The translations under genes were made by a program, and so were the position numbers. The notes under the pieces were generated by a model. That model was not told the DNA's origin, did no database searches, and saw nothing but the letters and a program-made list of their open reading frames with translations. Positions 272 to 7,557 of a stretch of DNA of 59,204 nt are shown here, piece by piece (the first letter of the stretch is position 1; the number at the start of each line of letters is the position of its first letter). Source of the DNA: Patescibacteria group bacterium (GTDB lineage Bacteria; Patescibacteriota; Saccharimonadia; Saccharimonadales; Saccharimonadaceae); assembly GCA_004322265.1 (NCBI GenBank), contig SCSZ01000002.1:1-59204 (forward strand), in the 5' to 3' direction.

Positions 272-1333
272 CTAGATTTGTTCGGTGTAGACAAGTACGC
301 GCTTACTCAGGGTATTCTGTGATGGAATCCAATCACCAGCACAGGTAATGATATTAAGAGCTCGTACAACCTTGCCATATGGCAGCAATAACGCGTGCAT
401 GTTGATCTTATCCTTATCAACAATTTCGGTGTGCACCACTTTGTACGTGAGACGCGTGCCGTCGCCTTTAGCGAGTTGGATTTGATCGCCAACGACTAGT
501 TTATCAAGCTTGCCAAACAACGCCTGATGGTCAGCCGAGGAGTGGCCATCGATAAGGACTGCACCGATCTGACCTGGCTTGACGCTTCCCTTGTACCAAC
601 CAGCATCAAAGATATTAATTGGCGCCTGAATAGTGTTGTCTTTGTTAAGTCCCATCTGGAGTACACGCGCAGTAACCTTGAGTTTGCTAATATATAAGGT
701 CTTTGGTAGATCTGGCGATGGAGGTTGGTAATTCGCAATTGCATTCTTAGGTAGCGGTGTCTTGTCGGTGCCCTCAACTGACTTGGTGTCCGTATTTGAT
801 GTATCGGCACCACTTGCGACGCTAGCAAGCGCTGCACTTTCTGTTACAGATTGCGCCTTTACTTGGTTATTGGTGAGCCAGGTGTTAATACCGACATAAC
901 CTGTTGAAAGAAGTAGTACGATCGCAGTTAGCGACAAGCTGAGACGCTTTAGAAATGATTTCTTACGCTGTTCGCGGTCTAGCTCTCTTCGAACTTTTTC
1001 GAGGGCTGCAGACATCGCATGGACTTTTTGTTCCGCTGATAGTTCGCGCATCATCGCTGCCTGTATCTCTGATGGCGTTGGCATAACCACTGACTGTTGC
1101 AACTCGACTGGCGCTACCTGCTCAACCTCTACCGGCGTTTCAACGGTGATACTCACCTGCTCTGTTACCACAGTTGGGTAGACTGACTGAGGCGTTTGAA
1201 TATTAATAATACGTGAACGCTCGATATACGTCGTACGGTAGTCCCTATCAGAATGAAGGTGAATGGGTTGTTGTCGATCAACCGGCTTGATTTGCCCGCG
1301 TGAACGACGATTGATTGGAGTTATATCTTGCAT
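272..1333 (-). CDS. Sortase family transpeptidase, membrane anchored
   Basis: This is a type II membrane protein of about 353 residues. It has a basic cytoplasmic N-terminus, a likely coiled coil near 100-128, one membrane span near 132-152, a linker, and a C-terminal sortase domain. The catalytic triad is visible: His in DGHSS (about 264), Cys in ITCAG (about 331) and Arg in SKRVLVY (about 345). Sortases cut a C-terminal sorting motif and join the Thr to a cell-wall amino group outside the membrane. An upstream in-frame ATG at 1375 would add 14 residues, but it lies in the loop of a 13-bp hairpin, so the ATG at 1333 is preferred; no clear ribosome site precedes either. The sortase class is uncertain (class D/E/F-like). 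Likely substrates are the neighbouring surface proteins. Confidence 0.85.
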   Translation of the reverse strand: MQDITPINRRSRGQIKPVDRQQPIHLHSDRDYRTTYIERSRIINIQTPQSVYPTVVTEQVSITVETPVEVEQVAPVELQQSVVMPTPSEIQAAMMRELSAEQKVHAMSAALEKVRRELDREQRKKSFLKRLSLSLTAIVLLLSTGYVGINTWLTNNQVKAQSVTESAALASVASGADTSNTDTKSVEGTDKTPLPKNAIANYQPPSPDLPKTLYISKLKVTARVLQMGLNKDNTIQAPINIFDAGWYKGSVKPGQIGAVLIDGHSSADHQALFGKLDKLVVGDQIQLAKGDGTRLTYKVVHTEIVDKDKINMHALLLPYGKVVRALNIITCAGDWIPSQNTLSKRVLVYTEQI

Positions 1334-1357
1334 CTTTTTGTTTGTTTTTTGATTTGT

Positions 1358-1388
1358 AACGAGCGAAGCTGTCATAGCTTCGCTCGTT
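1358..1388. terminator. 13-bp perfect hairpin between adhesin and sortase genes
   Basis: Stem AACGAGCGAAGCT (1358-1370) pairs perfectly with 1376-1388 around the loop GTCAT. On the plus strand it is followed by five T, a classic intrinsic terminator shape. On the minus strand, the direction of the flanking genes, it follows an A-run but is followed by only two T, so termination there may be partial. It sits just after the adhesin stop and before the sortase start. Confidence 0.6.
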
Positions 1389-1414: not shown

Positions 1415-3274
1415 TTATCGGTTAAAGCGACGGCGATTAGCAACGAGGCCAAAGAATCCAGCTGTTACGATACCGAGTACGAGGATAGTTGCAGGATTAG
1501 CCGCAATTGTCTCGGCAACACTTGTGTTAGGACCCTTTGGATCTGTACCAGCACTAAGGGCTGTAACAACGACGTCGTTACCATCACCACCAACATAGGT
1601 AATGTTGAATGTAATACCGCTAACGACGAATTGTGTTCCTTCAGCTAGGCCAGCAAATGTACCACTGACTGTTGTTGCGCTCTTGTTATCAATGATCTTG
1701 AACGAGTCGCCCTTCTTGATTGAGTAGCCAGAGTATAGAACGAGGTTAAGTGTAGGAAGGTTAGTACCACTACCCAGAGTTACTGCGTGTCCTGATCCAG
1801 TATATTGTGCACCAACTGCAAGTTGGTCATAGCTGCTTGCATTCAGTAGTTCTGCTTGGTAAATTGCTCCTGGGTTAAGGCTAAGAGTCTGAAGTGTGGT
1901 TAGTGTACCAGGACTGTTTCCAGGACTGACGGTACCACCATAGTCTACAAATAGATCATTAGTAAGTGTTCCAGTACCTTTTAGGATTCCGCCCGTATCA
2001 ACGCTCGCGTTTTGACGGGTACCACTTAGAGTAGCTGTTTCACTTTCGGCAACCTCGAAGTTCGTCTGAGGTAGGTTACCTGTGTAGGAAGTGGTTACGG
2101 GTGCATTCTTGATTTCTGTACCACCAATCAGCAACTTTCCTGTCGATCCGAGGTACTTAGAAATAGTAAAGCCATTATACGTAACTGCGCCTGCAAAGTT
2201 AACTGATCCAGATGTTGCATCACCATTCGTACGAACACTTAGGTTATTGAGTAACGTGATTGGACTATTAATTGCTAAGTTTTCGTATACCGTTTTTTGT
2301 GCTTGTGAATCCCAAGTACCAGTATTCCATACAACCGATGGGTATGCTGCACTCGCACCGCTACCAAACGTGATTGGGTATGACGGCGTGCCGGACAATG
2401 TCGCGCTTGCCCCGTTATCAACCACAAGACCACCAAGCGTTATCGTTGAGCCTGCCACTTGACCGAAAGATCCCTTAACAACTGTCAGAACTCCTGTTAT
2501 TGCACTGCCTGTTGAAAGGTAGAGATTTCCGTAATTGTTTACATCACCAACCGTTACGGTTCCTGCTACTGTATATACTTCGTAGTTATATAGTCCGGCT
2601 GTAACTACTAGATTACCGTCGACCGTTACTGCGTTGTTAATATCTACATTCGAACCTGAGACAGTTAAGTTACCGGTAACATGGAGTGCGCCGTTGGCAT
2701 TGAAGTATATGTTGTTGCCATACGTACCCGTAATAACAGCGTTACCGCCAACCGTTACAGTGCCACCTAATGTGACGTTATTACCAGCACCAGAGCCAGC
2801 TTCAGTGAAATCACCTATTGTGTTGATTGCACCTGAAAAGGTCATAGCTGCAGCTGCACCTGTAATACTCAGGGTGCCAGCTGAGGCAACAGCACCGCTA
2901 ACCGTAAGAGTCGTATCTGTTCCACTGGTAGTAATAGTCGCACCAGTTGCAAAATTCAACGTGTTAATCGTATAAGCTGTTGTAGTTGAAGAGCCACCAC
3001 CTGCAATAATAACCCCGCCAAGATTCACACCAACAAGGTCGTTGGTAAGTGCCGTCGTTGCGACACCTGCAGGAAATGTTACGACGTCCCCTGAGACAGG
3101 AACAGCGTTCCCAGACCAGTTTGCGGCTGTATTAAGATTGCCGCTGGAACTACCGTCCCATGTTAAAGTAGCCGCGTGAGCGAGCTGCACGCCACTAAAT
3201 TGCGACGCAATGACTGCTGCGATAAATACAAAGGTCCCTGCAACTCGGCGTAACGTATGAGCCTTCTTGATCAT
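1415..3274 (-). CDS. Secreted beta-helix adhesin-like surface protein with C-terminal anchor
   Basis: This 619-residue protein starts with a signal peptide (basic start, hydrophobic core 12-33, likely cut after AHA at about 34). The body, about 40-540, is rich in Gly, Thr, Asn and Val with short repeats of the type VTVxGNxxV, as in right-handed parallel beta-helices. Near residues 440-480 lies a passenger-type repeat with GGTVSPGNSPG, known from autotransporter passengers. The C-terminus has PNTSVAET, a hydrophobic stretch (about 593-612) and the tail RRRFNR, the layout of a sortase sorting signal, though no canonical LPxTG is present. The start has a good ribosome site (AAAGGAAA) and a promoter at 3320-3349. 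It lies between two sortase genes and is a likely substrate. Binding target unknown. Confidence 0.75.
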   Translation of the reverse strand: MIKKAHTLRRVAGTFVFIAAVIASQFSGVQLAHAATLTWDGSSSGNLNTAANWSGNAVPVSGDVVTFPAGVATTALTNDLVGVNLGGVIIAGGGSSTTTAYTINTLNFATGATITTSGTDTTLTVSGAVASAGTLSITGAAAAMTFSGAINTIGDFTEAGSGAGNNVTLGGTVTVGGNAVITGTYGNNIYFNANGALHVTGNLTVSGSNVDINNAVTVDGNLVVTAGLYNYEVYTVAGTVTVGDVNNYGNLYLSTGSAITGVLTVVKGSFGQVAGSTITLGGLVVDNGASATLSGTPSYPITFGSGASAAYPSVVWNTGTWDSQAQKTVYENLAINSPITLLNNLSVRTNGDATSGSVNFAGAVTYNGFTISKYLGSTGKLLIGGTEIKNAPVTTSYTGNLPQTNFEVAESETATLSGTRQNASVDTGGILKGTGTLTNDLFVDYGGTVSPGNSPGTLTTLQTLSLNPGAIYQAELLNASSYDQLAVGAQYTGSGHAVTLGSGTNLPTLNLVLYSGYSIKKGDSFKIIDNKSATTVSGTFAGLAEGTQFVVSGITFNITYVGGDGNDVVVTALSAGTDPKGPNTSVAETIAANPATILVLGIVTAGFFGLVANRRRFNR

Positions 3275-3360: not shown

Positions 3361-4305
3361 CTATATCTGTACAGCATATACCAATACCCTATTTTCTAGT
3401 GTTTCTTCTGATGGTAGCCACTTGCCCTGACACGACAAAATATTCAATCCGTTCCTACTAGTTCCGTATGGCTTTAGCATAGATGACATGTCAACATTAC
3501 TACGATTCACGACATTGATGGCCATAACCTTATAGTTGATAACGATGTTGTCAGCTCTCATAACATTTATAATATCTCCCTTGGCTAATGTATTGAGCTT
3601 GCCAAAGAGTGCGCCGTCGGTGCTACTTGAGTGGCCGTCGATAAAAACCGCGCCGGCCTGGCCTGGTTTGGCACTTTTGTTATACCACGCCGCGTTCCAT
3701 ATATTGCCTGGTACACCCATTGCTCCATTCGCTGTTGTCGCAACAGATTCTATGGATGCGTTAATCCCAAGTTTAGTTATGGTAAGCGTTTTAGGGATGT
3801 AGTTAGTGGTGTCGACCACGTTATTACTTGCTGGTGGTGTCTGGGCCGCAACGGCATGCGCCTCACGCGATGACACGGCTGTACTATCGTATACCCACAG
3901 ACCAATAGCGCTCACGATCAGTAAAACAATCAACCCTCTAACAATATGTCGTGGCCGTATAGTTATATGACGTCGAGATTTATGCAGCCGATGTTGTTTT
4001 TGCGCAACGTTTGACTGCTGCTGAAAGTATTGCTCGATGAAATTAGTAGTTGGTTCTTGGATTCCAACGGCTAGATCAAGATCGATCATGTCGAGGTTCG
4101 CCTCGACAAAGTCTATTTTGTCCTTGGCGTTGTCATGTATTGGTCGTTTTGTGGTACCTTTTTGGTCTTTTACAAATTCTATGCCCATTCGACGTGTTGA
4201 TTGAGTTGGCTTAGGATTGGTGATTTTAGTAGGTGCGTATATAGGTGTCAGTTTTGAAAACCGCTGGCGTGGCATTGTGGCTGGGTTTTCGAATGTTCCT
4301 TCCAT
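3361..4305 (-). CDS. Sortase family transpeptidase with N-terminal cytoplasmic module
   Basis: The 314-residue protein has a cytoplasmic region 1-118, one membrane span about 120-139 and an extracellular sortase domain from about 165. Catalytic residues are His225 (DGHSS), Cys292 (LSCQG) and Arg306 (ENRVLVY). Residues 16-25 (FSKLTPIYAP), 40-45 (MGIEFV) and 70-81 (NLDMIDLDLAVG) closely resemble segments of the next protein upstream, encoded at 4326-5504, which suggests a shared cytoplasmic module. The gene starts 20 bp after that one, with a purine-rich AGAAAGAG stretch upstream, so the two are probably co-transcribed. It is a paralogue of the sortase at 272-1333; the two catalytic domains align throughout. 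Confidence 0.87.
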   Translation of the reverse strand: MEGTFENPATMPRQRFSKLTPIYAPTKITNPKPTQSTRRMGIEFVKDQKGTTKRPIHDNAKDKIDFVEANLDMIDLDLAVGIQEPTTNFIEQYFQQQSNVAQKQHRLHKSRRHITIRPRHIVRGLIVLLIVSAIGLWVYDSTAVSSREAHAVAAQTPPASNNVVDTTNYIPKTLTITKLGINASIESVATTANGAMGVPGNIWNAAWYNKSAKPGQAGAVFIDGHSSSTDGALFGKLNTLAKGDIINVMRADNIVINYKVMAINVVNRSNVDMSSMLKPYGTSRNGLNILSCQGKWLPSEETLENRVLVYAVQI

Positions 4306-4325
4306 ATCCGTTTTCTCTTTCTATT

Positions 4326-5504
4326 TTATTGAATGCCCGTGTTGGCAACTGACGGTACGGTGTCGGTTGGAGTTGAGGTTGGCGTAGTAGCTGGTGTCGT
4401 TGTAGTTGCAGGCGTATCAGTCGTTGTCGAGGCTGGAGTTGTTGTCGCTGCAGCACTACTACTCGCTGTTGATGCGTCAGTTGTTGTTGTGTCTGTGGTT
4501 GTTCCAGTCGTAGAACTACCGGTAGCGCTGGATGGGCTCGAGCTAGAATCCGTGCTGCTCGTCGACGAGCTTTGCGGCGTGGTGCTCGTTGGCTGTGTTG
4601 TCGTTGTTTGTTTCTTACCGAGAATTGCGTTAACACCAAAGTAGCCACCAATTCCTAACACGATAACGATGCCGACGATAATTGCTATGCGGCGAATGAG
4701 TGGCAGGTTAAGGTTTTTAAGATTAAACTTCGAGGTCGAGACAGGTGCCGCAGCCACTGTCTGATAGACACTATCAAAGTAACTTTTCCCAGGATCTTGC
4801 TTTGGGGGTGCAGTTGGCTCAACCGCTGCAGTCGGGTTATTGACCGGGGGCACGGGTGCGATTGCTGGGGTAGGTTCTGTCGACGGTACGTAGACGGCAT
4901 CAGTTGCAGTTGGAACAGTTGTCGGCGGCACCGCACCAACAACTTGATCAAGATCGAGATCCTCTAATTGATTTTCAATTGCTGAATAGTTGGCCGCGCC
5001 TGACATTGACGCAATATTTTGTCCCTCGAGCGCTGAATTTTCTGGTGCCAGCGTACCAGCACTAGGTGGTGGAGGTATGATCTGTGGTGCTGCAGATGGA
5101 GGTAAAATCGGTTGAATTAATTGCGTTTGAGGTGGTGATACGATCGGCGCAGGTTCTGTAACCACTGGCTCGGATGCGACAGGCGTAGCAACGGGGCTAG
5201 GTGGAGGAGCGACAACAGTCGGTGTTTGAACAAATTCAATACCTTTAACAGCTGGCTGAGGAATGTCGGCTACGGTGTTTGTTGGTCCAGGTACATAGAC
5301 AGGCGTCAATTGAGAAAATTGCGGAGCGGGTGGTTGAACAGATACCGGTGGCATAGGCGGAAGTACGGGCATAGGATTTACAGCCGGCTGCGGCAAAGGC
5401 GCAGGCGCAGCATGATCAACATTCAGCATCATGCCGTTTGAGGGAGTTGGGGGTTGTGGCGCTGGTGGAGTTATTCCCAGGCTTCCAGCCGTTGTACCAT
5501 CCAT
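4326..5504 (-). CDS. Proline/threonine-rich single-span surface protein ending in VANTG-like motif
   Basis: The 392-residue protein has a long Pro-rich cytoplasmic N-terminus (1-265), one membrane span about 273-295, and an outer segment almost entirely Thr/Ser/Pro/Ala (about 298-384). It ends SVANTGIQ, with VANTG resembling the LAxTG-type sortase motif and no hydrophobic tail after it. The N-terminal segments FSQLTPVYVP (63-72), KGIEFV (87-92) and NQLEDLDLDQVVG (178-190) match the sortase encoded just downstream. It may be a membrane-held sortase substrate, giving a tether fixed at both ends; that role is inferred. No enzymatic domain is recognised. The gene has a long 5' leader. Confidence 0.7.
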   Translation of the reverse strand: MDGTTAGSLGITPPAPQPPTPSNGMMLNVDHAAPAPLPQPAVNPMPVLPPMPPVSVQPPAPQFSQLTPVYVPGPTNTVADIPQPAVKGIEFVQTPTVVAPPPSPVATPVASEPVVTEPAPIVSPPQTQLIQPILPPSAAPQIIPPPPSAGTLAPENSALEGQNIASMSGAANYSAIENQLEDLDLDQVVGAVPPTTVPTATDAVYVPSTEPTPAIAPVPPVNNPTAAVEPTAPPKQDPGKSYFDSVYQTVAAAPVSTSKFNLKNLNLPLIRRIAIIVGIVIVLGIGGYFGVNAILGKKQTTTTQPTSTTPQSSSTSSTDSSSSPSSATGSSTTGTTTDTTTTDASTASSSAAATTTPASTTTDTPATTTTPATTPTSTPTDTVPSVANTGIQ

Positions 5505-5831: not shown

Positions 5832-6266
5832 TTATCTGTTCAAATAATTCGAAAGTCGTGCTTTCATAGCGACATGTGCATCGTCGAGTCCAAGAATCTT
5901 AAGAGCACCGATCAATACATATAATTCATCCAAAACTGAGTCATTGTGCTGCTTTTCTAAACTATCAAATCTGTCCGTAATTGCATTGATAATCCACTTC
6001 TCTTGTGAGGCGGTTACCGTTTTGTTAATCGGTGCATCATCGAGATGAGTTGTGATAACTTCAAGTGATCTGGCCGAATTATCACGTTTTCTGACATAGC
6101 CCTTAGTAATCAGACCGTCGATGTGAATCGCGACCGTTGAGACGGACTTATATCCAAGTGCGCGCATAATTTCACGATAGCTCGGACCATAGCCATGTCC
6201 CTGGATAAATCCATCGACAAAGTTTAGTAATTCGCGCTGCTTTTTTGTTGATCGCAGATCACCCAT
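5832..6266 (-). CDS. LexA-type winged-helix protein lacking the S24 protease domain
   Basis: The 144-residue protein begins with a LexA DNA-binding fold (about 1-68): LRSTKKQRELLNFV, then GYGPSYREI, then VSTVAIHI and the wing segment ending SLEV. Full LexA is about 200 residues, with a Ser-Lys self-cleavage domain after the winged helix. Here residues 70-144 form a different, probably helical, segment with no Ser/Lys peptidase motifs. It may be a repressor that is not released by RecA-driven cleavage; targets are unknown. The ATG at 6266 overlaps the end of the preceding ligase-like gene by 8 nt, implying co-expression; a GTG at 6275 is an alternative start. Confidence 0.72.
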   Translation of the reverse strand: MGDLRSTKKQRELLNFVDGFIQGHGYGPSYREIMRALGYKSVSTVAIHIDGLITKGYVRKRDNSARSLEVITTHLDDAPINKTVTASQEKWIINAITDRFDSLEKQHNDSVLDELYVLIGALKILGLDDAHVAMKARLSNYLNR

Positions 6267-7557
6267 GTCGACCACCTATCGCTACTGCGGCTAGTCCCCA
6301 CCAGACAATCGCCACCGTATCGTCAACCCAAACAGGTAGAAGCAGCCCAATGATGGCGAGACCAACTCCACTGGCAAAGACCCCGAGTGCCAGCCAGCCT
6401 GATCGACGCTGCCACAAACGGCTCATAACACCGATAAAAATCATCAGAAAGAACGCGAGGCCTAGCCAGCCAGACTCGTGTGCAACGAACAAATATTGAT
6501 TCTCAATAATCAGCGGTGTGTCAGTGTGTAACGATGCCGATCCCGTGCTGCCAACCCCCGCGCCAAACGGTTGCACAACGAAACGCAGGATGCCATCTTG
6601 CAAGGAACTAATATGTCCTTGGTTGGAGTTTGTACTGCTGCCACCTGACGGATTTTCGTGCAGCAATACATTAGATACAAAGGTCGGGTTAGTAACGGCA
6701 AACAATCCGCCGACAGTTGCAAAAACGATAACGGCTCCAATAATCCATCCCTGTCGACTAATTTTTCGAGACAATGTAACGGCTAGAACAATGAATACCG
6801 CGATTGCCGCACCGATTAATGCGCTCCTAGAATAGCTTACCCAGACAGCGACCAAACTGCCGACAAAGATAACTACAGTCGGCAGAACTGGTAGCTTGAA
6901 CATGGCGTACTTTGCCCGAAACCAAAACGCCAGAACTAATGCGAGCACAATTCCTGCGTATGCACCAAGCGGATTGGGACCACGCAGCGTACTGTTAATG
7001 CGAATAAAGGCGTGATTTTGATCGACCGTCAGATACGGCGCAATTGTGTTAGTGTTATAGCCGATATATTTTAGTACGTCTGCAGGTAAGATGAAAACTT
7101 GCAGCAAGGCAAAAATCATCACCACAAGCGCGCCGGCGATACCGACCTTTATAAATAAGACTCTATAATCTGGGTGCAGACGTAGTGCAATATATACCAG
7201 TACAAAGAATAAGATATACCGCAAATCAATTGCGAGTCCTGCCGCAACGGATGATATTTCACCACCGAATAGTAATAGCGATAAAGCGTAGAAACCTGCA
7301 TAGATGGCAACACCAACCATGAGTGGCTCTTTCAAAATAGCCATCCGGCGTTCACGTCTGAGAATAATAATACCCAGGACTGTAGCAACCAACATCAGAA
7401 TCTCAGCCCAAGATTTAATAAGCAGGTCGAAATGCGGCAGTAATGCACCGAGTCCGACACTGATAGGCGCCTGCAACACAATCCCGCCAAAGATAGTAAG
7501 CAAGATAACTACATACGCTTTTTCAAGCTTTGTGCGTGTTTGACTCAAACCTGCCAT
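6259..7557 (-). CDS. O-antigen ligase/polymerase (WaaL/Wzy-like) membrane protein
   Basis: The 432-residue protein has about 10-12 membrane spans. The segments GPNPLGAYAG and VSYSRSALIG and a large outer loop before HESGWLGLAFF match the O-antigen ligase superfamily. Members transfer or polymerise lipid-linked glycans on the outer face of the membrane. In a single-membrane cell the acceptor would be wall glycan, a lipid or a protein rather than lipid A. The ATG at 7557 (MAGLSQ) is chosen because an upstream ATG at 7620 would overlap the divergent gene and its promoter; GGGGGT precedes the chosen start. It is followed by the LexA-like gene. Confidence 0.8.
   Translation of the reverse strand: MAGLSQTRTKLEKAYVVILLTIFGGIVLQAPISVGLGALLPHFDLLIKSWAEILMLVATVLGIIILRRERRMAILKEPLMVGVAIYAGFYALSLLLFGGEISSVAAGLAIDLRYILFFVLVYIALRLHPDYRVLFIKVGIAGALVVMIFALLQVFILPADVLKYIGYNTNTIAPYLTVDQNHAFIRINSTLRGPNPLGAYAGIVLALVLAFWFRAKYAMFKLPVLPTVVIFVGSLVAVWVSYSRSALIGAAIAVFIVLAVTLSRKISRQGWIIGAVIVFATVGGLFAVTNPTFVSNVLLHENPSGGSSTNSNQGHISSLQDGILRFVVQPFGAGVGSTGSASLHTDTPLIIENQYLFVAHESGWLGLAFFLMIFIGVMSRLWQRRSGWLALGVFASGVGLAIIGLLLPVWVDDTVAIVWWGLAAVAIGGRHG

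Follow-up and report, generated by a model that had tools for sequence, protein, structure and literature searches.

The window, i.e., the whole stretch of 59,204 nucleotides that was analysed, corresponds to contig C3 in a genome of 0.89 Mb and carries a sortase gene cluster on its minus strand. Following that strand, one meets a membrane protein, which we take to be O-antigen-ligase-like, a LexA-type protein, the membrane protein TAGP (5504-4326), the sortase SRT1 (4305-3361), the surface protein SURF (3274-1415) and a second sortase, SRT2 (1375-272). The features discussed below are as follows, where G036 and G224 denote two further genomes of the same genus.

5832..6275, minus strand: LexA-type protein, DNA-binding, encoded upstream of the cluster (PF01726, E 1e-16)
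4326..5504, minus strand: TAGP, 392-residue single-span membrane protein (open reading frame, hydropathy, G036 orthologue, AlphaFold)
5226..5330, minus strand: TAGP island 1 (residues 59-93), PAPQFSQLTPVYVPGPTNTVADIPQPAVKGIEFVQ (pairwise tests; core conserved in G036 and G224)
4935..4988, minus strand: TAGP island 2 (residues 173-190), YSAIENQLEDLDLDQVVG (pairwise tests, G036 conservation)
4614..4715, minus strand: TAGP membrane span (hydropathy; predicted helix 267-297)
4329..4349, minus strand: conserved TAGP C-terminus VANTGIQ, resembling the PNTG motif, with no span or basic tail after it
3361..4305, minus strand: SRT1, 314-residue sortase with a predicted cytoplasmic tail (PF04203, E 2e-15; NF033748; sortase fold)
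4168..4272, minus strand: SRT1 island 1 (residues 12-46), PRQRFSKLTPIYAPTKITNPKPTQSTRRMGIEFVK (pairwise and profile tests)
4063..4116, minus strand: SRT1 island 2 (residues 64-81), IDFVEANLDMIDLDLAVG (pairwise tests)
3871..3954, minus strand: SRT1 membrane span, with a basic stretch (KSRRHITIRPRH) just before it (hydropathy, AlphaFold)
3364..3798, minus strand: SRT1 catalytic domain (all 16 sortases compared keep H225, C292 and R306; AlphaFold)
1415..3274, minus strand: SURF, secreted surface protein and likely sortase substrate (orthologues beside SRT2 in several genomes of the genus)
1418..1534, minus strand: SURF sorting signal, GPNTS, hydrophobic stretch and RRRFNR (C-terminal motif comparison)
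272..1375, minus strand: SRT2, the other sortase of the cluster, whose long basic tail lacks the shared module (NCBIfam scan, tail comparison)

TAGP and SRT1 lie 20 bp apart, which suggests that they are co-transcribed. A promoter-like match, TTGACA-18-TACGAT, is found between SRT1 and SURF, and such matches barely exceed the shuffled count. The LexA-type protein (147 residues, with the DNA-binding domain as the sole part matched) was found in 22 of the 28 genomes of the genus and may act as a regulator of the sortase cluster. In members of the genus without TAGP, the lexA-like gene is followed, immediately or at a short distance, by the gene of another Pro-rich protein, about 100-120 residues long (L143:817-1173, L144:832-1185, and L142 at 1343-1639 of the reverse complement); two of these proteins end in GFFGKLFGKK.

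Proteins of the sortase cluster

SRT1 is, by its sequence and predicted structure, a sortase, as its catalytic domain scores above the curated cut-off of PF04203 (57 versus 26.6 bits), retains the invariant His, Cys and Arg and is predicted to adopt the sortase fold. AlphaFold modelled this beta-barrel with pLDDT values mostly between 75 and 96 in the domain block, and the best 50 PDB matches listed in a structure search were all sortases. The best-matching class is class F (NF033748), whose catalytic residues SRT1 shares, yet the score of 86.8 bits does not reach the curated cut-off of 166 bits for membership, and SRT1 differs further in its extra module on the presumed cytoplasmic side. The tail that carries this module is predicted to be disordered.

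TAGP gave no family match above cut-off in Pfam and NCBIfam scans. Its N-terminal tail of about 262 residues (23% Pro, predicted disordered) is followed by one span and by a Thr/Ser-rich outer stalk (62% T+S), and the protein ends in VANTGIQ; AlphaFold predicted disorder throughout, the exceptions being the helix of the span and a further helix of 7 residues. The initial annotation had taken TAGP for a putative sortase substrate. We looked in TAGP for a sorting signal, i.e., a C-terminal PxTG-like motif with a span and a basic tail, and found nothing after VANTGIQ; for lack of this signal TAGP is, as judged from its sequence, not a recognisable standard substrate. It is quite improbable that SRT1 nevertheless cleaves TAGP at its outer end and joins it to the wall, thereby tethering membrane to wall. 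VANTGIQ does resemble PNTG/PNTS and is conserved relative to G036 (dN 0.039) beside a faster stalk (0.184), but it has alanine in place of proline and, unlike every sorting signal found in the clade, is followed by neither span nor basic tail.

SURF, whereas TAGP lacks them, has all the elements sought: GPNTS...GIVTAGFFGLVANRRRFNR with a span and basic tail, and an N-terminal hydrophobic stretch as well. Its relatives end in PNTG, again followed by a span and a basic tail. Because it carries this signal, SURF appears to be a likelier substrate than TAGP, for SRT1, SRT2 or both. The motif itself varies, being PNTG in most relatives of SURF and PNTS in the two genomes with TAGP and SRT1; a PNTA variant was seen on a sortase-linked protein in another genome (G162). 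In SRT2-type sortases the cytoplasmic tail is long, basic and RGxI-like at its start, and might be a localisation signal of its own.

Ordered islands shared by the TAGP and SRT1 tails

The initial annotation had pointed to three segments in the same order before the membrane span of both proteins, and the reading frames and motifs were confirmed: FSKLTPIYAP, GIEFV and DLDLAVG precede the only span of SRT1, and FSQLTPVYVP, GIEFV and DLDQVVG the only span of TAGP. The first two segments (FSxLTPxYxP and GIEFV) form one ungapped 35-residue match between TAGP 59-93 and SRT1 12-46 with a shuffle-fitted p of 4e-5, and the acidic motif lies in a match between TAGP 176-196 and SRT1 67-87 with a p of 3e-5; being extreme-value fits to shuffles, these p values are meaningful as orders of magnitude only. 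The second island, IENQLEDLDLDQVVG in TAGP and VEANLDMIDLDLAVG in SRT1, follows the pattern VExxL...DLDL and comes after the first in both tails. When ungapped segments were chained with free linkers, the pair scored 78, compared with a shuffled mean of 23.4 and a maximum of 43, so that 0 of 1000 shuffles reached the observed score. Both proteins also begin with M[DE]GT. A third candidate segment (DPGKSYFDSVYQ in one protein, EPTTNFIEQYFQ in the other) was not significant (p 0.34) and is not claimed.

A one-sided profile, built from three TAGP sequences alone and searched against 5,622 peptides, retrieved two SRT1 proteins as its top non-training matches (E 7.6e-4 and 3.9e-3). The margin is small, with RNase J next at E 0.0049 versus 0.0039 for the weaker SRT1, but SRT1 was matched over the entire island 1 and RNase J over 12 residues, with FSQLTPIYA alone in common. 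FSQLTPIYA or a near match, part of island 1, occurs in RNase J of another genus (L056, L058, L060); RNase J was rejected as a carrier of the module, the match being a chance one that covers part of island 1 only. The cross-profile search with island 2 alone gave no match, and support for island 2 comes from the pairwise test and its order.

The tail of SRT2 was rejected as a further carrier, with p 0.13 against SRT1 and a score against TAGP that 28 of 1000 shuffles reached. Across 20 loci, 177 pairs of a sortase tail and a neighbouring protein were tested and only two stood out, both of them TAGP with SRT1, so the idea that sortases generally share tails with their neighbours was discarded.

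Orthologues bear out the islands. In G036, TAGP and SRT1 lie side by side with both islands in place, at overall identities to the window proteins of 67% and 75%, respectively. Islands 1 and 2 of TAGP are 92% and 96% identical between the two genomes (dN 0.035 and 0.05), versus 50% for the linkers before the span (dN 0.39; dS about 1.2 overall), i.e., the islands change about ten times more slowly than the linkers at the protein level. For SRT1, dN is 0.21 and 0.12 in islands 1 and 2, 0.53 in the linkers and 0.07 in the catalytic domain. Judged by these differences between island and linker, the islands are under strong constraint in TAGP and moderate constraint in SRT1. In the G036 pair the second island is not significant by itself (p 0.08) and the VG is displaced in SRT1, which reads DLDLTIEVG; the DLDxxVG consensus proposed initially is thus incompletely conserved, and the DLDL core alone is safe. 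G224 contributes the N-terminal part of TAGP, in which DIPQPAVKGIEFVQTP is intact though the linkers differ; SRT1 was not found in this genome, where the contig stops inside TAGP. Absence from orthologues, the outcome that would have undone the initial proposal, was thus not what we saw.

Chance or low-complexity resemblance of two Pro-rich tails, for which one could cite the Pro content of TAGP and the 9-residue chance match in RNase J, is very improbable: the shuffles never reproduced the score, the islands are not Pro-driven and orthologues keep them. Low complexity as the source was rejected on the strength of the shuffles and of orthologue conservation. The shared, ordered islands in the two tails are real, and the initial proposal of a shared cytoplasmic module is to this extent upheld.

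Distribution and origin of the pair

The island 1 profile was searched in 394 genomes of the family, 393 of the order and 380 of the phylum, in samples that overlap. Confident matches in these genomes were confined to three genomes of one genus (the window genome, G036 and G224). Weak matches with E near 1e-3 came from short open reading frames in G120 and G486 and from RNase J in G308, the chance match in RNase J being the commonest among weak matches outside the genus. The notion of a Saccharibacteria-wide tag tied to sortases therefore had to be given up for the sampled family, order and phylum. In the window genome, neither island profile detected tagged proteins besides TAGP and SRT1.

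In several genomes of the genus the order is lexA-like gene, SURF and SRT2, with TAGP and SRT1 missing and, in some, an additional gene in between. As these relatives keep the cluster without the pair, TAGP and SRT1 are best read as a lineage-specific pair that was inserted into, or newly formed in, an older cluster; the alternative is that the pair was lost elsewhere rather than gained in one lineage. The sortases nearest to SRT1 (43% identity) are those of the SRT2 type, which are operon-linked and long-tailed, and in the tree SRT1 sits on a long branch (1.27) inside a supported clade with SRT2-type sortases (98/96), although its exact sister is not resolved. SRT1 resembles a paralogue of SRT2 that evolves fast and has a tail like that of TAGP. 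It probably arose from a copied SRT2-type sortase to which an N-terminal half of the TAGP kind was added; transfer of the tail between the two proteins in the reverse direction is the alternative. Between TAGP and SRT1, island 1 shows only 43% agreement at third codon positions in the window and 29% in G036, from which it follows that the copying is old and that the protein match has been retained.

A possible common partner for the two tails

How the tails might work depends on which side of the membrane they occupy. Sortase catalytic domains work outside, so the SRT1 tail would lie inside, and the TAGP tail would then be on the same side if the module is functional. The reading that we favour, at somewhat less than even odds, is that tails of common descent dock on one cytoplasmic partner and thereby co-localise the enzyme and its neighbour. 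The two tails would either derive one from the other or share an ancestral tail, and each would act as a disordered cable presenting an identical set of short motifs, in unchanged order and with linkers of different length, to a common partner in the manner of short-linear-motif docking. Docking would set the sortase domain beside the Thr/Ser-rich stalk of TAGP outside the membrane, where SRT1 would act on the neighbouring PNTS-type surface protein, such that enzyme, stalk and surface protein would meet at one site. We propose docking because motif order is the same, the linkers differ and the islands evolve slowly in both tails; adjacency and synteny of the genes and the intact sortase residues are likewise observed. 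Against it stand the occurrence of both genes in two genomes only (with part of TAGP in one more) and the weak second island in G036.

Similar tails would also be expected from common origin alone, and inert shared ancestry is the main rival to docking. SRT1 could have borrowed the N-terminal half of TAGP as a ready-made unit for membrane insertion and expression, with each tail serving its own protein and no co-localisation. Old gene copying would account for the M[DE]GT start, the order and the islands, and SRT2-type sortases have long tails without the module as well; a generic insertion unit, however, needs no residue-level constraint in two islands far from the span. We hold this for possible but doubtful, and the present data do not separate it from docking. 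Instead of docking on a third protein, the tails might interact directly, making TAGP a regulatory or scaffold subunit of SRT1. Such a complex would fit the strict pairing of the two adjacent genes in both of the complete cases, but identical rather than complementary motifs fit a shared partner or self-association better, and AlphaFold gave neither tail a confident structure; we consider direct binding unlikely.

Docking of both tails on a common partner has partial parallels in known systems. For the pilin-specific sortase C of Enterococcus faecalis, the cytoplasmic tail is reported to matter for localisation. Sortases, substrates and SecA of E. faecalis coincide at membrane sites (PMC3297441 and PMC10107303, both of which cite the localisation study of Kline in 2009); sortase C is akin to SRT1 as proposed here in being gathered at such sites with substrates and SecA (PMC3297441), but no motif module common to an adjacent second membrane protein is described for it, and the SRT1 tail differs in being long and having specific motifs. 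The GYPSY motif of pilin-specific sortases, needed for function in vivo, is likewise a conserved N-terminal motif outside the catalytic domain, but its place is the signal/anchor sequence, its consensus is a different one and no partner protein is reported to carry it (PMC4829219). YSIRK/GXXS signal peptides direct staphylococcal surface proteins to the septum (PMC5962339, PMC11898559) and so resemble the module in sending several proteins to one envelope site by a common N-terminal motif; they differ in being on sortase substrates, within cleavable signal peptides, and not on the sortase. In the open-access literature we found no cytoplasmic module common to a sortase and an adjacent membrane protein, and the few Saccharibacteria papers with a mention of sortases that we found touch on them in passing only.

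Altogether, the shared tail is real, lineage-restricted and located in a sortase locus, and a role in co-targeting is plausible from these comparisons. It is tempting to speculate, though we would think it rather unlikely, that matched short-motif tails, by reading a common scaffold, bring a sortase and a stalked membrane protein together in one anchoring site. If true, such matched-tail assembly would be a means of directing a sortase from within the cell that has not been described so far. Little is understood of sortase placement in the envelope, and the motif pair on enzyme and neighbour offers a concrete bait for the partner inside. SRT1, as a sortase with a new tail after duplication, would also illustrate how surface-anchoring sites might diversify in bacteria with tiny genomes and a presumed life on other cells.
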